Shown here: in pieces, positions 14,601 to 62,028 of the stretch | How positions within the stretch are numbered: the stretch's first letter is position 1 | How the letters are laid out: each line of letters begins with the position of its first letter | Assembly: GCF_000953825.1 (NCBI RefSeq) | Contig: NZ_BBUL01000097.1 | Coordinates: 62,001-126,000, forward strand | Length of the DNA: 64,000 nucleotides | Reading direction: 5' to 3' | Source of the DNA: Cellvibrio sp. OA-2007 | GTDB taxonomy: Bacteria > Pseudomonadota > Gammaproteobacteria > Pseudomonadales > Cellvibrionaceae | The notes under the pieces: model-generated | The model's database searches: none | Told to the model about the DNA's origin: nothing | What the model saw: the letters and a program-made list of their open reading frames with translations, nothing else | Made by a program: the position numbers and the translations under genes

Positions 14601-14913
14601 AACCTTACCTTTTGTAGTTACGATTAAGTAGTTGTGCGATTAATGAGGCACTCATCGATACGTCAGAGGATGTGTGTGAATTGAATATATTGCAAATGAC
14701 GATAAAAACACTGACCATACCAAAACCTCGCGCTTACCTTTTGCTTACCAACTTTTTTCAATTAAAAATCAATAAGTTAAAACAACCATAAAAACCCACA
14801 TTACTTGTATTTACACATTCATATCTTGCAAAATTACACCCATAGTCGCAGCTTACCGAATAGACTGCGAGCCAAACAAACCAATAAAAACACTGACCGG
14901 AAAAGGCTCAACT
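14601..14913. other. Divergent intergenic region between the exported protein and the CadC-like regulator
   Basis: AT-rich 5' regions of both divergent genes. I see no convincing consensus promoter, tRNA or repeat here; the only notable element is the ribosome binding site AAAAGG at 14901-14906, which serves the small leader frame described next. Confidence 0.5.
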
Positions 14914-14946
14914 ATGCTGACCGCAACAGGCTACACCCTGCAATGA
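14914..14946 (+). CDS. Possible 10-codon leader peptide coupled to the CadC-like gene
   Basis: ATG 14914 is preceded by AAAAGG at a seven-base spacing and encodes MLTATGYTLQ. Its stop TGA overlaps the ATG of the regulator gene as ATGA (14943-14946). The regulator ATG has no good ribosome binding site of its own, so this short frame may couple translation. No homology can be judged at this length; it could be chance. Confidence 0.35.
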   Translation: MLTATGYTLQ

Positions 14947-17063
14947 ACACCCAGCAAGAAAACAGTTTTATGTTAGGTGAGGTAAAGGTATCGCCATCAC
15001 ACAACACCCTTTGGGCACACAACCAAAGCGTCAAGCTGCAACCCAAAGCGATGGCCGTGCTGCACTACCTTGCCAGCAATCAAAGCAGAGTGATCAGTAA
15101 TGAAGAGCTGATTGAACGCTTATGGGAGGGCCGCGTCGTCACTCATGGTTCAGTGCAAAAAAGTATTAACGCACTGCGCACGGCATTAAATGAGTTAATT
15201 AGCGATCAGGAATGGATTGCGCATTATTCCAAACGCGGTTACCAACTCATGATCGAACCGCAATTTCTAGCACCGTCACCGTCCGGTACAACGAGCGAAC
15301 CCAACGCGGTTATACATCAGCCGAACAACACACCCAATCTGCACAGGTGGGGCATGATCAGCATGACGATATTGGTGCTGTTAGTGCTTGCAGTGACTTA
15401 TAAAACCGTCAACTGGTATACCCTTTACTTACCACACCATCACCAAACAGTTTTCACTACAACACAAGGCTACACCAACGAAACCGGGCATGAGCGCAGT
15501 GCGACACCACACCCTGACAATCAACATCTCGCCTATATTCGCGAAAAACGCATTTCCGATAAATCGAGCGAAAATGAAATCATTATTCGCAATAAAAGCG
15601 GTAAGGATTGGCGCATCGCCAACACTGACGGCAACTGGTTCAAACTAGCCTGGTCCCCTGCCGGTAATAATTTGGTGGCGATTGAAGTAAAACGCCGCGA
15701 CGGTTTGTCACTGGGCACACAATTTTACCAACCGCCTAATTATCTTTATTCCTTTCATATATTCAACTTGGATTTTACGCTGGAACGATTACTGGAAAAA
15801 CAACAGCTAAGCCAATGGCAAGGCCATATCTTCAGTGTCACTTGGTGGGATGAAAACACACTTGAAATTGTCGCCAAACAAGGGCCCAACTCCGGCAATG
15901 CACGCTATCGCTACTCCATTCTGGATCAACAATTAACGCTACTGGACGAATTCGAAGGCGCAACTAATCCAGTTGCCAGCACAGTTCTCAAACAAAAAAC
16001 AGCCATTGCCAGCACGCAAAAAAATCAACTCAACATTGATTTTCTAAACGCCCAACAAAAACGTATTAACCGTGTCAATTTGGATGTGAATTTAACCGAT
16101 ATGAGTTGGATTCCTGACGGCAGTGGCGTACTGGTATATGCCGAAGATGAGCGAAAACTAATCGCAGTCTATTTAGATGGAAAACAAACACTCATCCCGC
16201 TCGCCGATAGCAAAGATAAAATCTTTTCTCGCCCACACTATAGTGCGGACGGCAGCGGAATTTTTTACACAGAAGAAAAACGCAGCGCCAATATTGTACG
16301 AGTGGGACTGGACGGCACGAAAAAACAGCTGACTGAAAACAACGATTTAAATTATGCCGCAAGCTTTTCGCCGAACGGAAATAAAGTGGTATATGCCTCG
16401 GTGCGCAACAATCAAATACACTTGTGGTTAATAGAGAACGAGCAAGAACGCCAACTGACCCAACAACCAGTCCCCAAAAAAATCGATAGCATTATTTGGT
16501 CGGATGACGGCGAGCATATTGTTTTCAACGCCAACATTCAGCTCTTCCACCACGACTTTCTCACCAATGAAACAATCTTGTTAGTGACTAATAGCGATAA
16601 AATCGAACCAATCGCTTATTTCTCCACCAAAAACCGTCTTTTTGCCCTGAAGTATAGCGGCGACGTTAGAAACTTATGGCGTATTGAAGGCGAGCAACAA
16701 AAGCAACTCACCTTCGGTGCCGTCGGCTCAGCAGTAGAATACGGCGGCGATGTCTATTTTCAATACATCGGCGAAAACGGCCTTTGGGCGTTGCGCAGCA
16801 AAGATGACACGCTTGAACGTATAACACCCAACTTGGAACAATTCAGCAAATTACTGAAAGCCGACAGCAAAGGAATTTATTTTATAAATGGCGGTGTCTG
16901 CCAAGAATCCGATATTTACTATTTCGATTACGCAACAGCAAGCAAATCAACTTTTTTAATACAGAAAAATCATGCGGTATCAACCACATCATTTAATGTT
17001 GATAAAGGTCTATTGCAGACGGAGTGTTATTTGCCGGAGGCAAATATTGTGTTGTTGAATTAA
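14943..17063 (+). CDS. Membrane-bound ToxR/CadC-like transcriptional regulator with beta-propeller sensor
   Basis: One-component regulator of 706 residues. The N-terminus (about 9-100) is an OmpR-type winged helix (Trans_reg_C): VSPSHNTLWAHNQSVKLQPK, SNEELIERLWEGRVVTHGSV, and the terminal hairpin SKRGYQLM. A single membrane segment follows at about 137-158 (ISMTILVLLVLAV). The long periplasmic part has TolB/WD40-like repeats such as SWIPDGSGVLVYAED, HYSADGSGIFYTEE, SFSPNGNKVVYAS and IWSDDGEHIVFNA, predicting a beta-propeller. This layout fits regulators that bind DNA while anchored in the inner membrane. The frame is open to 14805, but residues before MNTQQENS are not conserved in kind. Target genes are unknown; the GT2 gene follows on the same strand. 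Confidence 0.88.
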   Translation: MNTQQENSFMLGEVKVSPSHNTLWAHNQSVKLQPKAMAVLHYLASNQSRVISNEELIERLWEGRVVTHGSVQKSINALRTALNELISDQEWIAHYSKRGYQLMIEPQFLAPSPSGTTSEPNAVIHQPNNTPNLHRWGMISMTILVLLVLAVTYKTVNWYTLYLPHHHQTVFTTTQGYTNETGHERSATPHPDNQHLAYIREKRISDKSSENEIIIRNKSGKDWRIANTDGNWFKLAWSPAGNNLVAIEVKRRDGLSLGTQFYQPPNYLYSFHIFNLDFTLERLLEKQQLSQWQGHIFSVTWWDENTLEIVAKQGPNSGNARYRYSILDQQLTLLDEFEGATNPVASTVLKQKTAIASTQKNQLNIDFLNAQQKRINRVNLDVNLTDMSWIPDGSGVLVYAEDERKLIAVYLDGKQTLIPLADSKDKIFSRPHYSADGSGIFYTEEKRSANIVRVGLDGTKKQLTENNDLNYAASFSPNGNKVVYASVRNNQIHLWLIENEQERQLTQQPVPKKIDSIIWSDDGEHIVFNANIQLFHHDFLTNETILLVTNSDKIEPIAYFSTKNRLFALKYSGDVRNLWRIEGEQQKQLTFGAVGSAVEYGGDVYFQYIGENGLWALRSKDDTLERITPNLEQFSKLLKADSKGIYFINGGVCQESDIYYFDYATASKSTFLIQKNHAVSTTSFNVDKGLLQTECYLPEANIVLLN

Positions 17064-17255: not shown

Positions 17256-18218
17256 TTGAACCCACCACCAGACGAAAATGGAGTACTCTCGCCACTGCTA
17301 AGCATTGTGATATGTACTTATAATAATTCTGAATCATTAGCCATTACCATACAGCAAATACTGTCGCAAAAAATTAGTAATCCTGAGCGAGTAGAATTAG
17401 TTGTCATTAACAACAATAGCTCTGACAACACAAATCAAGTATTAGAAAATATACAAAATACAAATTTTCCTTTTAGGCATTACTTTGAGTCTCGCCAAGG
17501 CATTTCCCATGCTAGAAATACGGGGTTCGAAAACTCACTTGGCGCGTATATTTTATATACTGATGATGATGCTGAAATACCTCAATATTGGTTAGAGAGG
17601 TATATCAACAGGATATTGGTCAGCAATCCAGATTGCATCTTCGGAAAGATTACTGTTATTTGGGATATGCCGTCGCCGTGGTGGTATGAAGATGAAAAAT
17701 ATCAAAGTTTTTTTGCTGCGATTGATTATGGAGATGAAGAGTTTCAAATAAGCGATAAGAGATACCCCTTTCTCTCAAAAAATGCCTGCATTAGAAAAAA
17801 CTGTCTTATCGAAATTGGTGGATTCGACCCAACCTTGGGGCGTAAAGGCGCGCTATTAGCTGGCGGAGAAGAAACTTTAGTATTTTATCGTCTTGTTGAA
17901 GCAGAAAAGACGATTTACTATTGCCCCGAATTGACAATCAGGCATAGATTAAAGCCGCGGGAATACAAAGAGGAAAACATAACCAATCAATATATGGCGT
18001 GCGCCAAACCCATATTAAGAATCGCAACACTGCAACCAGGAAAACGATTTCTAAACAAACCACTTGGCGTTTTAGAGAACCAAATAAAGGAAATAATATA
18101 CAGCCTTCCAATGCTATTAACCGCATACATCACTGGCAACAAAAAAGAATTTTTTTATCAAAGCCTTCGTTTTCGAAGAGCTTTTTTAATCACTTTACTT
18201 TGGTTCGGAAACTTCTGA
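17256..18218 (+). CDS. Family 2 glycosyltransferase
   Basis: GT-A fold glycosyltransferase of about 321 residues: LSIVICTYNNSESL at the N-terminus, the nucleotide-sugar binding VVINNNSSDNT and ARNTGFENSLGAYILYTDDD (DxD-type metal site), and an acceptor-side GGFDPTLGRKG. A hydrophobic C-terminal stretch could touch the membrane. The best start is TTG 17256, with AGGAGA six bases upstream; ATG 17199 lies in frame without a ribosome binding site. Its sugar substrate cannot be told. The gene is more AT-rich than its neighbours, a possible sign of transfer. Its last 24 bases overlap the convergent pncC gene. Confidence 0.85.
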   Translation: MNPPPDENGVLSPLLSIVICTYNNSESLAITIQQILSQKISNPERVELVVINNNSSDNTNQVLENIQNTNFPFRHYFESRQGISHARNTGFENSLGAYILYTDDDAEIPQYWLERYINRILVSNPDCIFGKITVIWDMPSPWWYEDEKYQSFFAAIDYGDEEFQISDKRYPFLSKNACIRKNCLIEIGGFDPTLGRKGALLAGGEETLVFYRLVEAEKTIYYCPELTIRHRLKPREYKEENITNQYMACAKPILRIATLQPGKRFLNKPLGVLENQIKEIIYSLPMLLTAYITGNKKEFFYQSLRFRRAFLITLLWFGNF

Positions 18219-18686
18219 TAGCTTTGTCACAGCAAAACTAATCGCCTGCCTTTGTATCGCTGCCCTATCCCCATCAAACCGCTTCAATTCAGTTTTAATT
18301 TCCCCTGTTCCAGTAGCCCAAGCAAACCAGACCGTACCAACCGGCTTCTCAACTGAGCCACCACTTGGCCCGGCAATACCGCTAATCGCAACCGCTATAT
18401 CAGCGCCCGATAGTGCCAGTACACCTCTCGCCATTTCGATGACCACGGCTTCGCTCACTGCACCTTCGCGTGCGAGAGTTTCGCTGGATACACCGAGTAG
18501 TTTTTCTTTTGCGGCATTGGCGTAGCTAACGATTCCGTATTCAAACCAAGCGGAGCTGCCAGGAATTGCCGTGATCGCCGCAGCGACGCCACCGCCAGTG
18601 CAAGATTCTGCGGTGGCGATACGCCAATTACGCTGCAGTAATTGCTCACCGAGACGTTGGCTCAGCTGGTGTAGATGATCATCCAT
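18195..18686 (-). CDS. pncC: Nicotinamide-nucleotide amidohydrolase (CinA C-terminal domain)
   Basis: Deamidates NMN to nicotinate mononucleotide in pyridine-nucleotide recycling. The 163-residue protein is the stand-alone CinA C-terminal domain, with TAESCTGGGVAAAIT, GSSAWFEYGIVSYANAAK and AISGIAGPSGGS as signatures. In E. coli and Pseudomonas this gene lies directly upstream of recA; here it is about 7.8 kb away on the same strand, with an accessory block between. Confidence 0.93.
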   Translation of the reverse strand: MDDHLHQLSQRLGEQLLQRNWRIATAESCTGGGVAAAITAIPGSSAWFEYGIVSYANAAKEKLLGVSSETLAREGAVSEAVVIEMARGVLALSGADIAVAISGIAGPSGGSVEKPVGTVWFAWATGTGEIKTELKRFDGDRAAIQRQAISFAVTKLSEVSEPK

Positions 18687-18825: not shown

Positions 18826-20403
18826 GTGCAGACAATTCCGGGGTATCACATTAAAACGCTGATTGGCGAAGGCGGTATGGCCAAGGTGTATTTGGCAGTA
18901 CAGAAATCCCTCGACCGGGCCGTTGCTATTAAAGTATTGGATGCAAGCCTGAACCAAGATCCGATCATTCAAGCGCAATTTGAACAAGAGTCCACATTGG
19001 TCGCGCGGTTAAGCCATCCGAATATTATTCAAATCATTGACAAAGGGATGAGTGAACAACAACTGCCCTATTTCGTTATGCCGTATGTGAAAAGTGTATC
19101 GCTCGAAACCATATTGCCGCGCACCGATATTAGCCTCACGCGCAAATTGAATATTCTTATCCAGCTGTGTAGCGCATTGGCTTATGCGCATCGCAACGGG
19201 GTTGTGCACCGCGATATCAAACCAGCCAATATTTTGGTGGATTATGATGGTCACGCCTACTTAGTGGATTTTGGTATCGCGGGTTACTTTACTGCGAATA
19301 AAGAAGCAACTGATCCCAATCAAGAAAGAATTATGGGAACCGGTGCTTACATGGCACCCGAGCAACACAGTGGCACATCGCACACTAATCAACTGAGTGA
19401 TATTTATTCTCTTGGCGTTTTGATGCACGAGTTAATTTTTGGTGTAGTGCCCATGCTCGCCAATGAGCACACTTACGCACAACAAACCAACGACAAATAC
19501 CAAATGGCCAATGCATTGCGGCCATTAATTAATCGCTGCATTGAAGCTGATCCCAAGCAACGCCCTAGCGGCGCTGATGAGGTTCGCCAGCAACTATTAT
19601 TAATTTCGCAGGGGCGACATTTACAAGGCAATCGCTGGGGCAACGAATCTACCCGCGATAATATTCCGCCGAACTACACCTTGCTCGATGTCTTAAAAGA
19701 AAATCCTTTCGGTGCAACTTATTTAGTGAACGATCCTAATCGCCAACGTTTTTTGGTGATAAAAAAACAAAACCTCGATCACCTCGGCAACGCGCCGCAA
19801 TACGCTGCCAAATTAACCCAGGTGCAACATCCCCATATAGTGCGCATCTTTGGTACAGGGAAAAATCCGCGGGTATTCATCAGCGCAATGGAGTATTTAC
19901 CCGGCGGAAGCTTACAAGAGCGACTGACTCAATCGCTCAGCCTAGGGCAGTGTTTAACGATTGCACAACAACTGTGTAACGCCCTCGCCTGCGCCCATTC
20001 CTACGGAATCGTGCACGGCAATTTACGCCCTAGCAATGTATTGTTTGCGAAAAAGAATCATTTAAAACTGAGTGACTTTGGCTTTCCTGCACACAGCTAT
20101 GGCGATGATGCTCACTGGTATCAACCTGCCAATGAAGCTGTATCTGCTGGTGCCGACGTCTATGCTTTGGGTGCAATGCTATTCCAATTATTTACCGGAA
20201 CCCTACCATCACCCAGCTTATGGGGATTAAAAAATCGCTGGCGGTTACGCAAAGCACCACCCAAAGTACGCCGCTTGATTTTGCGAATTATCCACACTAG
20301 CCCGCACAAACGTATTGCCAGTGCGGAATTGGCTGGCAGCGTATTTAGCCAGCTACAGGGCGAGCAAAAAACACAGATTCTGGAAAAAATGATTGGCAAT
20401 TAA
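18826..20403 (+). CDS. Ser/Thr protein kinase with a second, degenerate kinase domain
   Basis: The 525-residue protein carries two kinase-like domains. The first (about 5-265) is complete: glycine loop IGEGGMAKVY, Lys36 in VAIKVLD, catalytic HRD in VVHRDIKPANIL (128-130), DFG (148-150) and an APE motif in MAPEQ. The second (about 285-525) keeps a lysine (LVIKKQN) and DFG (417-419), but the glycine loop is replaced by KENPFGAT and HRD reads HGN (397-399, IVHGNLRPSN), so it is probably a pseudokinase. No membrane segment is visible, unlike PknB. The start is GTG 18826 with GAGAG seven bases upstream; TTG 18820 is the alternative. The gene converges on the zinc-finger/membrane gene, their stops overlapping. 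Confidence 0.9.
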   Translation: MQTIPGYHIKTLIGEGGMAKVYLAVQKSLDRAVAIKVLDASLNQDPIIQAQFEQESTLVARLSHPNIIQIIDKGMSEQQLPYFVMPYVKSVSLETILPRTDISLTRKLNILIQLCSALAYAHRNGVVHRDIKPANILVDYDGHAYLVDFGIAGYFTANKEATDPNQERIMGTGAYMAPEQHSGTSHTNQLSDIYSLGVLMHELIFGVVPMLANEHTYAQQTNDKYQMANALRPLINRCIEADPKQRPSGADEVRQQLLLISQGRHLQGNRWGNESTRDNIPPNYTLLDVLKENPFGATYLVNDPNRQRFLVIKKQNLDHLGNAPQYAAKLTQVQHPHIVRIFGTGKNPRVFISAMEYLPGGSLQERLTQSLSLGQCLTIAQQLCNALACAHSYGIVHGNLRPSNVLFAKKNHLKLSDFGFPAHSYGDDAHWYQPANEAVSAGADVYALGAMLFQLFTGTLPSPSLWGLKNRWRLRKAPPKVRRLILRIIHTSPHKRIASAELAGSVFSQLQGEQKTQILEKMIGN

Positions 20404-21929
20404 TCCGGTTTTTCAGCAACTGGCTCAAGTGGCACCAACTCCAAGGTAAGTCCGCTTATTGTAGTTCCAGATGGTGGGCCACCTTTACGCACCGCTTTCA
20501 CACCTGTCGGTTTATGGTGCGCCTGCGCTTCAGTCACGCGCTTTTGTTCTTGCTGCAATACCAACGCAGCCTGTCTTTCATCAGCCTTACGTTTTAACTG
20601 CACCGCCATTTGCCGGCATTTATCCGCTTGCAATTGCATGTTCGGTATTTCAGTCAAAATATCAGCCAATAAATTATACGCATCAGGCAAACCGGAAAAC
20701 TCGGGATACAATTTATGGATACCATTAAGCAACTTCACCGCTAACTTTGAATCCCCCTGCTGCTTCAACAAAGTAGCCAGTTGCACACGCATGATGGGTG
20801 AATCGGGAAGATAATCAGGTGCGACAAACAAGATCTGCTTAAACGTTGGCGTCAGTTTATCGAATCGTTTGCGACGATTGAGGAATTCCAAATAGGTCAG
20901 CCCGTAATCTTCCATCAAAGCCGTTTTTTTGCATGCGTAAAGTAAATCAAAAAACTTATCAAAAAATAGGGGTTCATTGGGGTATTGCTTAAACGCATGG
21001 TAATAAAGCTTTACTAGCTGTTCGTAATCCCCTTCTTTTAGCATGACTTCAATTTTTGCGCTAAGCCGCTCCTGTTCACTGCGCTGTGAACCTTCATCGT
21101 CTTCATCCGAACGTGCGCTGTAACCTAATTGTTCTTGATATTGGAACAACATGTAGCCCATCAAATGAAACATCACCACTGTGTAGTAATTTGAAACAAT
21201 CGACTGCAACAAATACGACATTGCCGGAAACACTGCACCGATCCACTCATGCAAAACACCGACCGAGGTCATCATGATTAACATAAACACGATTAGCAGT
21301 CCGTAAGGCAAACCGATTGCGGCCATAAGCGCAATGGCGGCAAAAGGATTCATAGCCTCTAGCATATTTTCCGTTTGCGCAAAACGAATCAAAATAGCTG
21401 GATAAGAAAACACGGCGATGAAACCCAATAAACCACCGAGCGCTGCGCCGAGATAATAATAAGCAGCCCCAACAAGTACAGTTAACACCACTGTCATTAG
21501 CACCAGTTGCAATAACAACTTGATCCCGCCGGAATAGGCATCCATCACATCCGGGGCTTTCATTTCACCCATCGCGGTGCGTTCAAGACAAGTAAAGCTG
21601 TACTTCATCAGTGAGCCGGCAGCGAACAAATACATCGCTAAGGATAGAATCCATAAAAACGGCATAAGCGCTGCGAGCACTGAAATGATCGCTGTGATGA
21701 CAATCAAACTCATCGAGTTAGCATTGACCGGATACTTAAACGCCTCTTTTAACCTGCGCCAAAATGGCTCTACCGTATTGGCAGAACCGAGACTTTCCAG
21801 CACTGCGCCGCAAACAAAACAATGCGCTGCCCTGTGTGCGTCATCAACACATTTATCACATTGCCGACTATTGCAGGCACGGCACGCATAGGTGGCGCCA
21901 TCCAGCGGATGATATTTACAGTAATCCAC
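20400..21929 (-). CDS. Multi-pass membrane protein with N-terminal B-box-like zinc finger and helical-repeat C-terminus
   Basis: Unnamed 509-residue protein in three parts. Residues 1-42 hold a cysteine/histidine cluster (C4, H7, C16, C19, C24, C27, H32, H36, C37, C40) with B-box spacing, predicting two zinc sites. Residues about 75-275 hold five or six membrane segments (SLIVITAIISVLAAL, LVLMTVVLTVLVGAAYYYLG). Residues about 285-460 are soluble and helical, resembling TPR repeats (DYEQLVKLYYHAFKQYPNEP, RVQLATLLKQQGDSKLAVKL). The tail is charged and glutamine-rich. It lies 3' of the rhomboid gene and overlaps it by 14 bases, so the two are coupled. I know no defined function. Confidence 0.8.
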   Translation of the reverse strand: MDYCKYHPLDGATYACRACNSRQCDKCVDDAHRAAHCFVCGAVLESLGSANTVEPFWRRLKEAFKYPVNANSMSLIVITAIISVLAALMPFLWILSLAMYLFAAGSLMKYSFTCLERTAMGEMKAPDVMDAYSGGIKLLLQLVLMTVVLTVLVGAAYYYLGAALGGLLGFIAVFSYPAILIRFAQTENMLEAMNPFAAIALMAAIGLPYGLLIVFMLIMMTSVGVLHEWIGAVFPAMSYLLQSIVSNYYTVVMFHLMGYMLFQYQEQLGYSARSDEDDEGSQRSEQERLSAKIEVMLKEGDYEQLVKLYYHAFKQYPNEPLFFDKFFDLLYACKKTALMEDYGLTYLEFLNRRKRFDKLTPTFKQILFVAPDYLPDSPIMRVQLATLLKQQGDSKLAVKLLNGIHKLYPEFSGLPDAYNLLADILTEIPNMQLQADKCRQMAVQLKRKADERQAALVLQQEQKRVTEAQAHHKPTGVKAVRKGGPPSGTTISGLTLELVPLEPVAEKPD

Positions 21930-23358
21930 GTTCAGCTCCTTGTGCGAGTTGTTGGGCTACAGCATCGTAATGGGATTTTTTCCCCGTATCGCGCAAGCGC
22001 AGAAAGGCTGCCGCTAATTTGCTCGCGTAAACCGAAAAGGCTGGATTGTTACAACCGCGCGCCTGTAGCTGCAAAAATAATTGCTCCGCCGATTGCGGGC
22101 TTTCCAACGCAGTAAATTGCATGCCCAGTTTTAATGCAGCTTGCTCGGATAACTGCATGTGCACATCAGGATTATCCTTCCACACCTTGTCCAACTTTTT
22201 CACCTCTTCCGGCGCTAGCAGCGGCACTGTTAATAAGTTTAACGTTGCTGGCAAATAGGCGTCGCCTCGCGAAATTTTTAGCAAATTGTAGCGAATCATC
22301 GCCACATCAAAGGTGAGCCCTTTTTCCTTGATCAGTGCATCTACCAACGCGAGCGCTTGTTCAAAACGATGTTTTTCAATTGCCGCATAGATATCGGCCA
22401 ATTGTTGTTGACGAGGATCTATAGTTTGGTCAGTTTCAATATATTGCGTATTAAACATTTTACGGTTGAGCAACCATGCGATACCAATCAGAAATACACC
22501 TGCTACAAAACCGCCCGCATGCGCCATAAACGCCACATTGGATTCACTATCGCTGTGATAACTGTAAATTTCTTTGCCAATATAAAATGGCAAAATCAAC
22601 AGTGCTGGGGCACGAAAATACCCGACAAAAAAGAAAAACCAGTAAAAAAATTCAATTTTTTTCAAGCGAAAGACGGCGAGATACATCGCCATCACGCCAG
22701 AGATGGCACCAGACGCTCCCACCAGCGGTGTAGTGCTGCTCCAATCAGACGCCACCTGTGCAAAGCCAGCAGCAACACCAGATAACAAATAGAATAATAA
22801 AAATCGCCAATGGCCAATTGCCGCCTCTACCGCAAAGCCACAGATAATTAAAAAGAACATATTGCCCAGCAAATGCATAATATCGCCATGCAAAAACTGA
22901 TGCGTAATAAACGTGGAGACGCGCATATCGCTCGCTCGCAAACCATTGGCGATGTAGCTAACAGATTGTAATTGCGCATGCAGGCGCGTCCGCTCAGGCG
23001 CCCATTCGGCGTAATAATCCGGGGTAAAATAGCTGCGGTAATTTTTCTGCAGATAGGCGTAGAAGGCTTCGTTCATCACCATATCGCCAATAATCAAGTC
23101 AACATCACCCTGCTGAAATTGTTGGCGATAATTCTTCAGCAGTGTGAGGTCCTGCTTTTCTTCCAGATACTTTTCAAATACCGGCCACTCTTGCGCAAAA
23201 TAATCTCTGGCTTGATAAGTAGTAATGGCCTCGATAATTTTTTTGGTATCGCCGCTCTGGTAGAAAAAAAACACCATCACGTTCATCAATACCAGTGCAC
23301 ACAGCACTAGCGGAGCATTGCGCCAATCCAGTTGTTTTTCAGTCGGGACTATAATCAT
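21916..23358 (-). CDS. Rhomboid-family intramembrane serine protease
   Basis: The 480-residue protein has the rhomboid catalytic set: His162 and Asn166 in HLLGN, the nucleophile Ser216 in GASGAISG, and His280 in MAHAGGF. Two features differ from GlpG-type rhomboids: about 105 soluble residues (34-140) between the first membrane helix and the catalytic core, and a 170-residue helical C-terminal extension (about 310-480). It is the first gene of a two-gene unit with the zinc-finger membrane protein. Its substrate is unknown; the partner is one candidate. Confidence 0.92.
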   Translation of the reverse strand: MIIVPTEKQLDWRNAPLVLCALVLMNVMVFFFYQSGDTKKIIEAITTYQARDYFAQEWPVFEKYLEEKQDLTLLKNYRQQFQQGDVDLIIGDMVMNEAFYAYLQKNYRSYFTPDYYAEWAPERTRLHAQLQSVSYIANGLRASDMRVSTFITHQFLHGDIMHLLGNMFFLIICGFAVEAAIGHWRFLLFYLLSGVAAGFAQVASDWSSTTPLVGASGAISGVMAMYLAVFRLKKIEFFYWFFFFVGYFRAPALLILPFYIGKEIYSYHSDSESNVAFMAHAGGFVAGVFLIGIAWLLNRKMFNTQYIETDQTIDPRQQQLADIYAAIEKHRFEQALALVDALIKEKGLTFDVAMIRYNLLKISRGDAYLPATLNLLTVPLLAPEEVKKLDKVWKDNPDVHMQLSEQAALKLGMQFTALESPQSAEQLFLQLQARGCNNPAFSVYASKLAAAFLRLRDTGKKSHYDAVAQQLAQGAERGLL

Positions 23359-23639: not shown

Positions 23640-26351
23640 ATGAGATACACCGCATCAACCCGTTTTGCACACTCCAGCCTGTTTTTGGCCATTAGCCTGT
23701 TCGCTTCTTTGGCCAATGCGCAAAGTGCGGCTAAAGATGATCTGGTCGAAGAGGTACTGGTTACCGGCAAGTTCTTGAAAAGCCTGCAATCTGCCGCAGA
23801 GATCAAACGTAACTCCGCCAGTGTAGTAGAAGCTATCTCGGCCGAGGATATCGGCCAACTGCCCGATGTATCCATCAGCGACTCTTTAAAGCGTCTCCCC
23901 GGCTTGGCACAGGATCGCGACCGTGGCAATGGCAGCCAAATTTCTATTCGCGGCATGGGCGGCATGCTCGGCTTCACGACGCTGAACGGCCGGGAAGTAG
24001 CGATTCTGGAAGAAACGCGCAATATCCGATACGACCAATTTCCATCGGAATTAATCAATGCTGCGCAGGTTTACAAAACACCTCAAGCATGGATTCCAGA
24101 AGGCGGGGTGTCAGGCACCGTCAACTTGGATACGATCAAGCCACTCGATTACGATTCGACCAAAGTGGTAGTGGACCTGCGCGCAACTTTATCCGAACTA
24201 GGGAAGGATATAGATGATGCCGCCAACGATGGCATGGGCCAACGCATCAGCATTTCTTATATCGATCAATTCCTAGATGACACACTCGGTGTTGCCATCG
24301 GCTATTCAGGCCGCTCTGAAGCTATTGCCACACAGCGCGCAGAAATTTGGAATTATGGTGATACCTGGCACAACACCCAATGGAATAACCAACTGGGCGC
24401 AAATGTGATCGCACCATGGGGCGGCTCTGCTCTGGTGCGTGGCGGCGAAGATGAGCGCCAAGGTGTAATGGGCGCAATTCAATGGCAACCCAATGACAAT
24501 TTGGAAATCAGCTATGACGGCTTTTGGTCATCTTTTGATATACGCGAGAATCAGCGCGGCTTTGATTTTCAAATCAGCAACAATTTTGATAACCAATGGA
24601 ATTTAATCGAGACAGCGCCCACCGCATACACCAACAGCGATCTCGGCGCGGGCGCAGTGGATTTACTTTCCGGCACAGTTAACCTCAGCTCGCTACGTAA
24701 TCTGAATGAGGAATATGTGCAAGATGATGAGCTCTCCAGCCACGGAGTGAACGTAAAGTGGACGCAAGATTTATGGACCATTGCAGCTGACGCGGGCGTA
24801 TCGGAAACCAGCCGCAACAAGCGCTGGGCAACTGTGCGTACCGAAAATAGCGCACCTGGCCGCGCAACCTTCGGGGCAACAACTGATGGCCGCATGACGT
24901 TCAAATTGCTCGATGCATCACTCACTAACACTAACAGCAATCAGGTCGCGAATATTCAGGTTCAGCCCCAAGCAGAAGGCGGCGATGAACTCAGCTCATT
25001 TAAACTGGATTTCACTCGCGAAATTGATACAGGTTTATTGCAAGCAGTTAAGTTCGGTGCCGCCATTTCCAGCCGCGATAAATTTGAACACGGACAAATC
25101 TGGTCGCAGACCGTTACACAAAATGCCGGTTCAGCGATTCCTGCAAGCGCTATTATCGATGCAAAAAGTGATAGCTATTGGAGCGACCTGCCCGACTATT
25201 TAGCGGTAAATCGCGCTGCCGTGATTAACAACTACTTCGGCGGTTTAAAAAATCCAACTCCAGGTGATGCCGATGATTTAATTTCCAGCTGGGATGTGAG
25301 TGAAGATATAAGCGCACAATACATTCAGTTGGATATGGGCACAGAAGTGTTTGGTCTGGCGCTAACCGGTAACCTCGGTGTACGCAGTGTTGAAACCGAA
25401 ACCACCTCTAGCGGCTACCAACAAGGTGAAGATGTTTGGGTAGAAGTAACTCCCGGCAACTGGCAGCCTCAACAAGTGGTAGAAGCTATTTCTGTTGATC
25501 ATGACTACAGTGATGTATTGCCGAGCACCAACTGGACATTACATTTAAACGATGAGCAGCTGCTACGTTTTGCCGCTGCTAAAACCATGGCACGAGCGCC
25601 AGTGAATATGATGAGCCCAAGCCTGAATCTCAATCAGGATTTATGGGGCTCCAACCCGGGTGAATCGACGTCTGGCAATCCCAAGCTAGATCCATTCCGC
25701 GCCGATCAAGCCGACCTGTCTTACGAATGGTATTACGCAGAAGGCTCGCAATTTGCTGCAACACTTTTCTATAAAGATTTGGAAAGTTTTATCGCTCGCG
25801 CCGCCGATGCAGAAACGGTGGTGAATAATGGCAAAGAGTACACGGTATCGCGCCCAATTAATGGCAGCGGCGGTTATATTCGCGGTTACGAATTATTGTG
25901 GCAGCAATCGTTTGATTTTTTGCCCGCGCCGTTTAATGGCCTGGGTATTTATACCAACTACTCGCACAACGAATCGAACGTTGAACAATTTGTACCGCTT
26001 AACAGCGATTACAAAGCGGGTCTGACGGGCTTGTCGGAAGATGTTGCCAACTTTACCCTCTGGTACTATCTGAATGGGTTTGAAGCGCGCACCTCATACA
26101 GCTATCGCAGTGCATTCCAACGCGACATTAATTTGGTGATGGGCGAAGAAGGCATGAACGATGCGGAAGGTTATTGGGATTTAAGCCTTTCTTACGAATT
26201 TAATGATCACTATAAAGTTTATTTCCAAGTACAAAACCTCACCGACGAGCCCTACAAAACCTATGGTTTGGAATCTAACAATCCAAACCATATCAACAAA
26301 TATGAAGAGTTTGGTACACGCTATTCCGTCGGTTTGAATTGGAAGCTGTAA
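23640..26351 (+). CDS. TonB-dependent outer-membrane receptor, probably for galactan oligosaccharides
   Basis: Outer-membrane active transporter of 903 residues. A signal peptide ends near ASLANA-QS (residue 28). It is followed by a TonB-box-like stretch (EEVLVTGKFL) and a plug domain (AEDIGQLPDVSISDSLKRLP; ISIRGM), then a 22-strand-type barrel with the terminal motif EFGTRYSVGLNWKL. The sequence resembles the large Caulobacter/Xanthomonas-type receptors used for plant oligosaccharides. Followed by GH53 and GH2 genes on the same strand, it most likely takes up beta-1,4-galacto-oligosaccharides; the ligand is inferred from context. A hairpin with a T-run ends the gene 34 bases before the GH53 start. 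Confidence 0.9.
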   Translation: MRYTASTRFAHSSLFLAISLFASLANAQSAAKDDLVEEVLVTGKFLKSLQSAAEIKRNSASVVEAISAEDIGQLPDVSISDSLKRLPGLAQDRDRGNGSQISIRGMGGMLGFTTLNGREVAILEETRNIRYDQFPSELINAAQVYKTPQAWIPEGGVSGTVNLDTIKPLDYDSTKVVVDLRATLSELGKDIDDAANDGMGQRISISYIDQFLDDTLGVAIGYSGRSEAIATQRAEIWNYGDTWHNTQWNNQLGANVIAPWGGSALVRGGEDERQGVMGAIQWQPNDNLEISYDGFWSSFDIRENQRGFDFQISNNFDNQWNLIETAPTAYTNSDLGAGAVDLLSGTVNLSSLRNLNEEYVQDDELSSHGVNVKWTQDLWTIAADAGVSETSRNKRWATVRTENSAPGRATFGATTDGRMTFKLLDASLTNTNSNQVANIQVQPQAEGGDELSSFKLDFTREIDTGLLQAVKFGAAISSRDKFEHGQIWSQTVTQNAGSAIPASAIIDAKSDSYWSDLPDYLAVNRAAVINNYFGGLKNPTPGDADDLISSWDVSEDISAQYIQLDMGTEVFGLALTGNLGVRSVETETTSSGYQQGEDVWVEVTPGNWQPQQVVEAISVDHDYSDVLPSTNWTLHLNDEQLLRFAAAKTMARAPVNMMSPSLNLNQDLWGSNPGESTSGNPKLDPFRADQADLSYEWYYAEGSQFAATLFYKDLESFIARAADAETVVNNGKEYTVSRPINGSGGYIRGYELLWQQSFDFLPAPFNGLGIYTNYSHNESNVEQFVPLNSDYKAGLTGLSEDVANFTLWYYLNGFEARTSYSYRSAFQRDINLVMGEEGMNDAEGYWDLSLSYEFNDHYKVYFQVQNLTDEPYKTYGLESNNPNHINKYEEFGTRYSVGLNWKL

Positions 26352-26392
26352 TAAGCATACGTGTGTAAGTTGTAAATGGAATCCTCCCTTAT

Positions 26393-26420
26393 TGCGGCTG
26401 CTTCGGCAGCCGATTTTTTT
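26393..26420 (+). terminator. UUCG-loop terminator between the receptor and GH53 genes
   Basis: CGGCTGC (26395-26401), TTCG loop, GCAGCCG (26406-26412), then a seven-base T-run. It would end most receptor transcripts and lower expression of the enzymes behind it, or the GH53 gene has its own start within about 30 bases. Confidence 0.88.
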
Positions 26421-26445
26421 GGCCTTTTGCTAGCGTGACACTGTT

Positions 26446-27567
26446 ATGAAATTTTCGCTAAAAACGTTAATCGTCACTCTTGGTAGTTTACTTACAAGTT
26501 TATGCCTGTACAGCTGGGCCGAAAAACCCTTTTATGTGGGCGCTGATTTATCCTATGTCAATGAAATGGAAGACTGTGGTGCAACCTATCGCGATAAAGG
26601 AAAAAAAGTTGACCCATTTACCTTGTTTGCCAACAACGGCGCAGACATTGTGCGTGTACGTATTTGGCACAACGCTGAATGGACAAAATATTCGGATTAC
26701 TATGATGTAGAAAAAACACTACAGCGCGCGAAAGACAACAAGATGAAAACCCTGCTGGATTTTCACTATTCCGATACCTGGACTGACCCGGAAAAACAAT
26801 TTATCCCAAAAGCCTGGGCGCATATCACTGACACTAATGAATTAGCCAAAGCGCTTTACGATTACACCACTGAAACCCTTCGCAAACTCGATGAAAAAAA
26901 CCTGTTGCCGGATATGGTTCAAGTCGGCAATGAAACCAATATCGAAATACTGCAACAAGAAAAATCCATCGTACATGGCATTCCCAACTGGCCACGCAAT
27001 GCACAACTATTAAATAGCGGAATTAAAGCCGTGCGCGATTACAGCAAAGCGTCAAACAAATCCATTCAAATAGTGCTGCACATAGCGCAACCGGAAAATG
27101 CACTTTGGTGGTTTAAACAAGCTAGCGAAAATGGCATTAAAGATTACGATATTATCGGTCTCTCCTACTACCCGCAGTGGTCTACCTATAAGCTGCCGGA
27201 TTTGCCGGACGCCATTAAAACATTAAAAAACACCTATCAAAAAGAAGTGATGATTGTTGAAACTGCCTACCCTTGGACATTAAAAAACTTTGACCAAGCA
27301 GGCAATGTACTGGGTGAAAAAGCAATACAACCGGAGTACCCAGCCACCGTAAAAGGTCAATTGTTTTATCTGCTAGCATTAACCCAATTTGTGAAAGCCG
27401 CAGGTGGATTAGGGGTAATCTATTGGGAGCCGGCGTGGGTCAGCAACCGCTGCAAAACTCTGTGGGGCCGCGGCTCACACTGGGAAAATGCCAGTTTTTT
27501 TGATGCAACGCGCCGTAACAACGCTCTGCCCGCCTTTTTATTCTTTTCGGCAGAGTACACCGAATAA
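26446..27567 (+). CDS. GH53 endo-beta-1,4-galactanase (first copy)
   Basis: Cleaves beta-1,4-galactan, the side chain of rhamnogalacturonan I. The 373-residue protein starts with a signal peptide ending near YSWA-EK (residue 25). GH53 hallmarks are VGADLSYVNEMED, VRVRIWHN, LLDFHYSDTWTDP, acid/base Glu163 in VGNETN, and nucleophile Glu272 in MIVETAYPW. The C-terminal GRGSHWENASFFD is also typical. It differs clearly from the second GH53 at 32873-33880. It sits between the TonB receptor and the GH2 gene, so periplasmic or surface hydrolysis of the same substrate is likely. Confidence 0.94.
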   Translation: MKFSLKTLIVTLGSLLTSLCLYSWAEKPFYVGADLSYVNEMEDCGATYRDKGKKVDPFTLFANNGADIVRVRIWHNAEWTKYSDYYDVEKTLQRAKDNKMKTLLDFHYSDTWTDPEKQFIPKAWAHITDTNELAKALYDYTTETLRKLDEKNLLPDMVQVGNETNIEILQQEKSIVHGIPNWPRNAQLLNSGIKAVRDYSKASNKSIQIVLHIAQPENALWWFKQASENGIKDYDIIGLSYYPQWSTYKLPDLPDAIKTLKNTYQKEVMIVETAYPWTLKNFDQAGNVLGEKAIQPEYPATVKGQLFYLLALTQFVKAAGGLGVIYWEPAWVSNRCKTLWGRGSHWENASFFDATRRNNALPAFLFFSAEYTE

Positions 27568-27611
27568 TTAAACTCCCCCTGTAATTTAAAAGAAAACGAG
27601 TGAGAGACATT

Positions 27612-29975
27612 ATGATAAATACCAAATTTTTCAACCGGGGCAAATTTTACATGTACAGCCTTGCGCTCTGCAGCCTTATCACCGGCTGCTCGCCCAGCGC
27701 ACAAAATACAGCCCCGATTGCAGACATGCTCTATGACAAAGACTGGCAATTTTTCCGCAGCGACAGTGCGCTCGATTTAGCCGCAGCACAGCAATACAAA
27801 AACTGGGAAACGGTGCAAATTCCCCACACACCCAAAATTGAACCACTGGTTGTTAACGAACAATTTCAAGGCGATGCATGGTATAAAAAAATAATTACAA
27901 TGCAGGAAAGCTGGCAGGAAAAACAAATCTCACTGAAATTTGAAGCAGCTATGAACGTGGCCGAGGTATGGCTCAACAGCGAAAAACTGGCAACTCATGT
28001 GGGCGGCTATTTACCTTTTACTGTCAACCTCACTAAAAGATTAAAATGGGATGCGCCTAATGAATTAATGGTACGCCTGGATAACCGCGACAACCCTGTC
28101 ACCGGTCCGAAGCCATTAAAGGATTTGGATTTTAATACCTACGGCGGCATTTATCGTCATGTGTATTTGCAGATCAATAATGACCTGCACATTACTGATG
28201 CAGTCGCAGCAGGCAAAACTGCCAGTGGTGGAATTTTTGTAAGCTATCCACAGGTTACAGAAAAACAAGCCACTATCAGGATAAAAACACATGTCGCCAA
28301 TACCCATATTGATCCAAAACAATTCCGTGTGGAGCAAACATTATTAGCAGGCGACAAAGTAATCGTTAATCAAACCGGCGAACTGCAAACCGTAAATGGA
28401 AATACCGACGCGGAAAATACTATTGATTTAGTACTTGCCAATCCACAACTCTGGTCGCCGAAAAAACCTAACCTCTACAACCTGGTTACTCGCGTTTATG
28501 AAGGCGATTCACTGGTTGACGAGCAAACCACTCGAATTGGTATCCGCGAATTTAAATGGGTCAAAAATCAGCTCTTGATCAACGGTCAGCCAATCTTTTT
28601 ACGCGGTGTAAATCGTCATCAGGAATATCCGTATGTGGGTTATGCAACGTCTGACGCCGCAGATTATCGCGACGCTGTAAAAATAAAATCCGCTGGATTC
28701 GATTACGTGCGCCTATCACATTACCCACATTCGCCCGCGTTTATGGCCGCTGCCGATGAATTGGGGCTGGTCTTGCTGGATTCGATTTTAGGCTGGCAAT
28801 ATTTTTCTGAAGACCCGGCATTTCAAGCCCAGATTCAACAAACCTGTCGCGATTTAATTCGCCGCGACCGCAACCATCCATCCGTAATGGCCTGGGAGTG
28901 CTCGTTAAACGAATCCTGGATGACCGAATCTTTTATAGATTCACTTACTCAAATTATCGATGAAGAATATCCAGGGGCTATGTCTGCTGGCTGGCAGGAA
29001 TATGGTTACGACATTTACTTACAGGCACGCCAACACCGATTGGAACATTACAAAAAACCAACGAAACCTTACATCGTCAGCGAATACGGTGATTGGGAAT
29101 ACTACGCCATGAATGCCGGTTTAAACCAAACCGCTTGGGCAAATTTATTGCAAGCTGACCGCTCCAGCCGCCAATTGTTAAGCGATGGCGAAACACGTTT
29201 ATTGCAACAAGCCGCTAATATTCAGGAAGCGCACAACGATAACTTCAACACACCCGCATTTGCTGACGGCTACTGGGTAATGTTTGATTACAACCGTGGT
29301 TACGCTCCAGACCTGGAGGCATCAGGCATTATGAGCATCGACCGCCTACCTAAATACAGCTACTACTTCTACCAAAGTCAACGCGACGCCAATGAAGTTT
29401 CCGAAAAATTTAGTTCAGGCCCTATGGTATTTATCGCCAGTGAATGGAACGAAAAATCTGATACCAATGTGCGCGTATTCAGTAATGCGGATGAAGTAGA
29501 ACTGTTGCTTAACGGAAAAATTATTGCCAAACAAACACCGGACCAAAACGGCAACAGCAACAATTTGCCACACCCACCGTTCACCTTTGCATTGGAAAAA
29601 TTTGAAGCAGGTGAATTAAAAGCCATTGCGTACATCAATGGCAAAGCCGTCGCCGAACATCGTCAGGTTACCGCAGGTGCCGCAAAAAGTTTGCGACTAA
29701 CCTTAGACACCAGCGGCAAAGCTGCACAAGCAGGCGTTAAGGATGCAATATTTGTATACGCGCAATTAGTAGATAGTGATGGCAATCCAACGTACAGCAA
29801 TAATGTCCCTGTCTCCTTCAGTGTGAAAGGCAGTGCAAAACTAATCAGCCCTGTAGAAGTGAACACCAGCGGAGGTATTGCCAGTGCGTTAATTGAGATT
29901 GGTGATTCAATCGAAGGAGTTAGCCTTAGTGCAAACAGTGGGGAACTTGCTCCAGCCAACATCAATTTCCAATAA
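27612..29975 (+). CDS. GH2 beta-galactosidase-like lipoprotein
   Basis: Probable exo-beta-galactosidase releasing galactose from galacto-oligosaccharides. The 787-residue product begins with a lipoprotein signal (lipobox ITGC), then a GH2 sugar-binding domain (VAEVWLNSEKLATHVGGYLPF), an immunoglobulin-like domain, and the GH2 TIM barrel (GQPIFLRGVNRHQEYPYVG) with acid/base Glu434 (SLNESW) and nucleophile Glu491 (VSEYGDWE). The C-terminus has a DUF4982-like domain (FSNADEVELLLNGK) and a bacterial Ig-like domain (NVPVSFSVKG). ATG 27612 has GAGAG five bases upstream; a GTG four codons earlier also exists. Other GH2 activities cannot be excluded, but the GH53 neighbour favours galactose release. 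Confidence 0.9.
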   Translation: MINTKFFNRGKFYMYSLALCSLITGCSPSAQNTAPIADMLYDKDWQFFRSDSALDLAAAQQYKNWETVQIPHTPKIEPLVVNEQFQGDAWYKKIITMQESWQEKQISLKFEAAMNVAEVWLNSEKLATHVGGYLPFTVNLTKRLKWDAPNELMVRLDNRDNPVTGPKPLKDLDFNTYGGIYRHVYLQINNDLHITDAVAAGKTASGGIFVSYPQVTEKQATIRIKTHVANTHIDPKQFRVEQTLLAGDKVIVNQTGELQTVNGNTDAENTIDLVLANPQLWSPKKPNLYNLVTRVYEGDSLVDEQTTRIGIREFKWVKNQLLINGQPIFLRGVNRHQEYPYVGYATSDAADYRDAVKIKSAGFDYVRLSHYPHSPAFMAAADELGLVLLDSILGWQYFSEDPAFQAQIQQTCRDLIRRDRNHPSVMAWECSLNESWMTESFIDSLTQIIDEEYPGAMSAGWQEYGYDIYLQARQHRLEHYKKPTKPYIVSEYGDWEYYAMNAGLNQTAWANLLQADRSSRQLLSDGETRLLQQAANIQEAHNDNFNTPAFADGYWVMFDYNRGYAPDLEASGIMSIDRLPKYSYYFYQSQRDANEVSEKFSSGPMVFIASEWNEKSDTNVRVFSNADEVELLLNGKIIAKQTPDQNGNSNNLPHPPFTFALEKFEAGELKAIAYINGKAVAEHRQVTAGAAKSLRLTLDTSGKAAQAGVKDAIFVYAQLVDSDGNPTYSNNVPVSFSVKGSAKLISPVEVNTSGGIASALIEIGDSIEGVSLSANSGELAPANINFQ

Positions 29976-61934: not shown

Positions 61935-62028
61935 TAACTTATCAACCTTAAAGAATAATTTGTAAGATACGCCAAAATAATACGTATGAAACTATTGCAG
62001 TAGATAACAACATGAGCAGAAAAAGGAT

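Follow-up and report, generated by a model that had tools for sequence, protein, structure and literature searches.

A gammaproteobacterial rhomboid protease is paired with a membrane tetratricopeptide repeat protein that carries a B-box-like zinc finger

The functions of bacterial rhomboid proteases are called largely elusive in the abstract of a study on YqgP (GluP) of Bacillus subtilis, a rhomboid with tetratricopeptide repeats (TPRs) and a metal-binding domain that works together with FtsH in quality control (PMC7231995). According to excerpts of three other papers, Shigella GlpG and Rhom7 serve in quality control of orphan subunits (PMC7232013), Streptomyces has zinc-finger rhomboids (families A and B; PMC4467639), and a B-box is listed among the additional domains tabulated for mycobacterial rhomboids (PMC2989971). 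Here, we analyzed a stretch of 64,000 nucleotides from Cellvibrio sp. OA-2007 (positions 62,001 to 126,000 of contig NZ_BBUL01000097.1; hereafter the window) in which a rhomboid protease gene adjoins the gene of a zinc-finger membrane protein (hereafter the partner), with a kinase gene beside them. Burroughs and colleagues reportedly presented prokaryotic B-box, AN1 and LIM domains in 2011 as partners of membrane peptidases. The service of prokaryotic B-boxes to membrane peptidases is echoed in part of a later text (PMC4506424). An initial annotation of the window had joined all three genes into one module and knew of no described system with this composition. Regarding the two-gene pair, we likewise found no description among the literature matches listed (open-licence papers), but rhomboid-linked fingers as such were already in print.

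The rhomboid and its partner, which combines a finger, six transmembrane (TM) helices and a TPR domain, are a true pair that has been kept adjacent over many genera. Partner, rhomboid and kinase were each used to search 116 related genomes, including that of the window, with up to 12 candidates scored per genome and a rhomboid counted as long when its match started at residue 1-16 and spanned more than 300 amino acids (aa). The partner was present in 40 genomes and the long rhomboid in 37, all of them within the 40 (37 with both, 3 with the partner only, 0 with the long rhomboid only, 76 with neither; Fisher p 3.6e-27), and the distance between the two genes was at most about 1.1 kb in 37/37 genomes. 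A class-level sample of 274 genomes gave a similar picture, with up to five candidates per genome scored and rhomboid matches kept at E values up to 1e-40. Besides the window genome, 20 genomes had a long rhomboid at E <1e-70 and a partner was found in every one, at E <1e-60 in 19 and at 3.6e-18 in G335. With our own genome counted, 21 had both genes, 5 a partner-like gene only, 1 a rhomboid only and 247 neither (p 1e-25). The two genes were inside a 1.5-kb flank in 18/20 genomes and on separate contigs in the other two. Distant versions of both genes, with 27-36% identity to those of the window, also occurred together in G012 and G016.

Gene order was compared over the best 80 of 128 partner relatives, obtained from one peptide pattern/partner profile alone and coming from Cellvibrio, Saccharospirillum, Kangiellaceae, Neptuniibacter, Thalassolituus, Reinekea, Marinobacter and others. 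The loci, of which about half are from Marinobacter, do not count as independent. In 72 of the 80, a rhomboid was no more than 2.5 kb from the partner (39 tandem, 33 convergent), and the remainder included four convergent loci near 2.7 kb and one at 8.6 kb. The partner gene comes first in G089 and G331. In a quick tree of the partner (76 rows), the tandem order made up a single clade of 52 rows, and no more than four changes are needed to account for the gene-order labels, at least one of them being a rhomboid loss. The link between rhomboid and partner has outlived at least two rearrangements (tandem, convergent, partner-first), and a common promoter cannot account for the pairing where the genes converge. 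When the loci with a partner were placed into 65 groups, 61 contained a rhomboid and 14 the next commonest family. The latter was ABC-exporter-like by reading and may reflect family size, and a wider conserved neighbourhood was rejected.

Some loci departed from the simple two-gene arrangement. At L225 (G349), one rhomboid is flanked by two tandem partner-like genes. Orphan partners at L100, L101 and L102 lie beside panB-, deoxynucleoside-kinase-, folK- and pcnB-like genes (named by reading); the same neighbour genes are found at L094 (G016), with partner plus rhomboid still present. Since G016 keeps both genes in like surroundings, the rhomboid was probably lost at the three orphan loci.

In the window, all three open reading frames (ORFs) were found as initially annotated, the double-domain kinase converging with overlapping stops on the two-gene unit, and each of the two coupled proteins has the large helical region that had been noticed, at its C-terminus (Table 1). 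The kinase and partner ORFs are tail to tail and have 20400-20403 in common, whereas those of rhomboid and partner overlap by 14 nucleotides. Because of this overlap and of a GTG start codon preceded by AAGGAG within the rhomboid gene, translation of the two is probably coupled in one operon.

Table 1. Positions of genes, domains and sites of the rhomboid/partner locus, numbered from the first nucleotide of the window
Feature	Position	Strand	Remarks
Kinase-pseudokinase gene	18826-20403 (first listed start 18820)	+	Convergent neighbour, judged outside the rhomboid/partner unit
Partner gene	20400-21929	-	509 aa: zinc finger, six-TM bundle, TPR domain
Partner TPR domain, residues 285-470	20520-21077	-	TPR_14 in 54/58 members
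Partner six-TM domain, residues 70-263	21141-21722	-	Model helices; very short outer turns
Partner zinc finger, residues 1-47	21789-21929	-	Putative ligands C4, H7, C16, C19, C24, C27, C37, C40
Rhomboid protease gene	21916-23358	-	480 aa; PF01694 E 4.9e-27
Rhomboid C-terminal helical domain, residues 304-479	21922-22449	-	TPR-like by hhalign to the partner C-terminus
Partner ribosome-binding site AAGGAG	21936-21941	-	Inside the rhomboid gene, six bases before the GTG start
Catalytic His280 codon (AHAGG)	22519-22521	-	Invariant in A2 and A5
Catalytic Ser216 codon (GASG)	22711-22713	-	Invariant in A2 and A5
Rhomboid loop-1 insert (TM1-TM2), residues 37-138	22945-23250	-	Model helices; W119 and R123 invariant in A5

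By sequence, the rhomboid has the features expected of a rhomboid protease, namely the GxSG serine, the TM6 histidine and the histidine and asparagine of TM2. It scored 95.3 bits with PF01694 (curated cut-off 22.6), a family matched by 57/57 members of the larger of our two rhomboid alignments (A2, 30 rows; A5, 57 rows). The TM2 residues H157, H162 and N166 are as invariant across A5 as the two catalytic residues, which are conserved in 30/31 sequences once the divergent G105 protein is in the alignment. The predicted structure (predicted local distance difference test, pLDDT, 85.4) consists of TM1, beginning at residue 17, the loop-1 insert, TM2-6 and a C-terminal helical domain; residues 1-5 and 238-248, with pLDDT <50, were left out of interpretation. 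The core of the model was superimposed on GlpG with a Z score of 17.5 over 169 aligned residues (root-mean-square deviation 3.3). The insert, acidic in composition and modelled as six helices plus a short seventh, is predicted to be extracytoplasmic, and hhalign found no similarity between it and the C-terminal domains of the pair. The C-terminal domain of the rhomboid is predicted to be cytosolic. It is TPR-like by profile and fold, the fold matches of the model including TPR-type rows, and Pfam TPR_14 was seen in just 6/57 members.

The partner was modelled with a pLDDT of 89.4 as a finger followed by six TM helices and a TPR domain, and its conservation was read from alignments A1 (34 rows) and A4 (58 rows). 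Charged residues occur in the loops predicted to be cytosolic and are few in the outer turns. Conservation of the TM helices was higher on the cytosolic than on the outer half (2.42 vs. 1.72 in A1, 2.75 vs. 1.95 in A4), a difference not equalled in any of 20,000 permutations, with the halves assigned from the predicted topology. The window protein exceeded the TPR_14 cut-off (32.6 vs. 23.5 bits). TPR chains filled its list of PDB fold matches, so the six-TM bundle was not really tested by this search. DUF4013 (PF13197) matched 12/58 members at E up to 0.05, the window protein not being among them, and the weak Pfam matches HEPN_SAV2148, Rer1 and STING_TM were taken as chance. The nearest named relative was from Cellvibrio (89% identity), and no partner match was obtained at E 1e-3 in 72,556 plasmid records.

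The finger of the window protein has the layout C-x2-H-x8-C-x2-C-x4-C-x2-C-x9-C-x2-C, and all eight putative ligands are invariant in A4; H7, C24 and, once, C27 vary in wider partner sets. With the last spacing left free (6-18), this layout was observed in 58/58 rows of A4 and 23/34 rows of A1, whereas a spacing of exactly 9 was seen in 4/58 and 5/34 rows. The initial annotation had called the finger B-box-like. The likeness is real, with PF00643 matches at E up to 0.05 in 40/58 members (best 1.5e-6), but the window finger, at 14.5 bits, falls below the Pfam cut-off of 24.1, and the last conserved ligands are CxxC instead of HxxH, H32 and H36 not being conserved. Six class-level partners (L228, L229, L230, L232, L233, L236) are devoid of the finger and are each still beside a rhomboid, which points to the finger as an accessory and to the six-TM and TPR body as the constant part of the partner.

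The C-terminal domains of rhomboid and partner resemble each other. They were aligned by hhalign over 157-162 columns with a probability of 96.6-98 and a score of 65-84, compared with 23-57 for either domain against the TPRs of two control families (29 PilW and 26 YbgF sequences). TPRs are generally alike, and the two control families gave 66 when compared with each other, which equals the lower of the scores for the pair; common ancestry of the two domains is therefore suggested, not proven, and this tempers the reading that follows.

We propose, with a probability of roughly 0.5, that the rhomboid and its partner make up a single unit of membrane proteolysis, either as two subunits or as an enzyme with a cofactor dedicated to it. 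The partner would sit beside the rhomboid in the inner membrane, with both C-terminal domains and the finger facing the cytosol. From that side, it could capture or sense client membrane proteins through its TPR arm and, where present, its finger, both of which may bind clients or a further factor. The rhomboid would then cleave the client within the membrane, for quality control or regulation. As the partner is almost never missing when the long rhomboid is present, it provides a direct handle on rhomboid function, and the pair offers a test of whether intramembrane proteases of bacteria select their clients with the help of dedicated membrane subunits. Several observations weigh against this proposal. 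Among the related genomes, a partner occurs without a long rhomboid in G054, G062 and G071, and G023 has an additional orphan partner. In the class sample, G357 has a divergent long rhomboid and no clear partner, six genomes have partners without the finger, and G235, G105, G294, G146 and G280 have partner-like matches (E <1e-10) but no long rhomboid that passes the 1e-40 threshold, those of G146 and G280 being partial and G105 having a weak rhomboid nearby. No rhomboid was present in the available DNA of L183, where the contig ends, and of L189, and L210 is unscored, its partner ORF not having been picked by the script. The conservation pattern itself is compatible with several roles.

The chief rival explanation, which we consider unlikely, is that the partner is the dedicated substrate of the rhomboid, with a TM helix being cut and the cytosolic TPR or finger part released or destroyed as a signal. 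The one-to-one co-occurrence and the operon fit this explanation, as does TM4, predicted to run from outside to inside, in which Pro177-Ala178 is invariant in 34/34 and 58/58 rows. From sections of the respective papers, the Shigella substrates tested need a conserved TM proline for cleavage (PMC7232013) and YqgP cleaves a polytopic protein (PMC7231995). We rated the partner lower as a substrate than as a subunit because the higher conservation of its membrane domain is on the cytosolic half, not the periplasmic half, and because orphan partners persist without a rhomboid. Rhomboids usually cut on the periplasmic half; P177 lies in the inner half, and none of the small residues of outer TM4 is invariant in A1.

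Alternatively, the partner could regulate the rhomboid or help to assemble it, keeping it inactive or positioning it, and the finger would act as a sensor of zinc or redox state. Two possible sets of finger ligands, paired tentatively, one of which varies, would suit such a sensor. Excerpts of two papers provide parallels, namely the metal-binding N-terminal domain of YqgP, which controls cleavage (PMC7231995), and a similar finger fused in cis to actinobacterial rhomboids (PMC4467639). Nevertheless, all six finger-less class partners are beside a rhomboid, which excludes sensing by the finger as a general role, and we hold this explanation to be rather improbable. It is also conceivable, at low odds, that the two proteins act separately in one membrane process, such as lipid or transport homeostasis, and are linked by shared regulation only. 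The weak DUF4013 similarity, the conserved polar residues in the TM helices and the ability of the partner to occur alone would agree with separate action. On the other hand, the C-terminal domains match, the start of the partner is coupled in tandem loci, and the pairing is retained in convergent order, in which one promoter cannot serve both genes.

The third gene, the kinase, is a chance neighbour of the pair. Its product contains two Pkinase stretches (E 4.6e-75), which we examined in an alignment of 26 sequences (that of the window and 25 of 28 matches). Domain 1 looks active, with K38, D132 and DFG in 26/26 sequences, and domain 2 looks like a pseudokinase since HRD is replaced by HGN in 25/26. 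At a presence threshold of E up to 1e-60, the kinase was found in 28/116 genomes and the pair in 37/116, with no significant association (12 with both, 16 with the kinase only, 25 with the pair only, 63 with neither; p 0.17), and the result was similar within the genus (8, 8, 4 and 1, respectively; p 0.34). Direct adjacency of kinase and pair is confined to five genomes of a single genus (G000, G004, G010, G013 and G014). The two are separated by about 6.4 kb in G015, by about 112 kb in G026 and by 1.2 Mb in G048, and no close homologue of the kinase was found in G007 and G017, both of which have the pair. Thus, the two genes stay together in G026 and G048 with the kinase located elsewhere, an outcome that the initial annotation had itself named as refuting its proposal, and the module of three co-occurring families that the initial annotation had put forward does not hold beyond adjacency within one genus.

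The surroundings of the kinase differ between genomes. In G001, the kinase, a permease gene, eutB, eutC and a TonB-receptor-like gene are in a row without the pair (middle three by Pfam, L128 2727-6363). In G008, eutC-like and eutB-like genes come after the pair (L135 3758-5967) and a permease-like gene after the kinase, on two contigs (by reading), so that the eut genes probably lie between pair and kinase there. The permease gene and these ethanolamine ammonia-lyase genes are missing from the window at the pair/kinase site. Co-occurrence, distance and the eut-type genes at the site in sister species led us to reject the kinase as a third member. A single pathway of three, as initially suggested, keeps the finger protein and the rhomboid as a true pair and loses the kinase, 16 of 28 kinase genomes being without the pair. 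That the three genes form one signalling module is therefore very hard to credit: all three are adjacent in the window genome and in G004, G010, G013 and G014 of the same genus, but kinase and pair show no association in the 116 genomes or in the genus, eut-type genes follow the pair in G008, and G001 has kinase and eut genes without the pair. These results correct a three-gene story that was plausible but wrong.

Other genes of the window were also noted. A divergent CinA-family gene (18195-18686) is next to the kinase gene. A divergent CinA gene is likewise near the kinase in G001, G004, G014 and G015, none is labelled near it in G003, G005, G009, G048 and G050, and in G017, which has no close homologue of the kinase, CinA adjoins the partner gene. 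On the other side of the pair, a TonB receptor, a GH53 enzyme and a GH2 glycosidase (23640-29975; Pfam) make up a probable galactan-use locus, the substrate being a likely assignment. One protein (14805-17063) combines an N-terminal OmpR-type DNA-binding domain with a beta-propeller-like region.

Compared with described systems, the proposed unit would resemble YqgP, with its parts spread over two proteins. In sections of PMC7231995, YqgP combines a C-terminal TPR domain with a metal-binding cytosolic domain and works in membrane-protein quality control with a partner protein; the counterparts here would be the putatively TPR-like C-terminal domain of the rhomboid, the predicted zinc finger and the six-TM partner. 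The same sections place the metal-binding N-terminal domain on the YqgP rhomboid itself, whereas the finger described here belongs to a separate protein; the window rhomboid, with TM1 so close to its N-terminus, has no N-terminal cytosolic metal-binding domain of the YqgP type. They also describe the TPR domain of YqgP as extracellular, in contrast to the C-terminal domains predicted here as cytosolic, and the partner of YqgP is the FtsH protease. GlpG shares the catalytic core fold of the window rhomboid and membrane quality control is a likely parallel, but glpG is in an operon with the sulphur-donor gene glpE, not with a membrane TPR protein, in the part of PMC7232013 that deals with it. 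The window rhomboid missed the GlpG equivalog cut-offs by far (TIGR04239, 20.5 of 250 bits; NF008155, 23.6 of 335 bits). Rhombosortase, paired with GlyGly-CTERM (PMC3237569), is likewise of the rhomboid family, and its model TIGR03902 gave 38.7 bits against a cut-off of 84.

Regarding the finger, the rhomboids of Nonomuraea (L334) and Arthrobacter (L336) have the same layout as the window partner, and a third actinobacterial rhomboid, L335 (Streptantibioticus), is without it. Our finger profile gave a weak match to L334 (13.6 bits; all 600 shuffled copies scored lower) and did not pick up L336, and both match Pfam zf-B_box below the cut-off. The actinobacterial finger is fused in cis, and the proteins that carry it contain neither a six-TM nor a TPR partner, whereas that of the window is on the separate partner and its rhomboid has no fused finger. 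As prokaryotic B-boxes are said to be, the B-box-like finger here is linked with a membrane peptidase instead of with ubiquitin. We further suggest, tentatively and at odds well short of even, a two-subunit class of gammaproteobacterial rhomboids in which sister cytosolic TPRs, one on the catalytic subunit and one on a near-obligate six-TM partner, would form a heteromeric clamp that grips the client, with the finger as a removable accessory and the in-cis fingers of the actinobacterial rhomboids as a compact version of the same arrangement.

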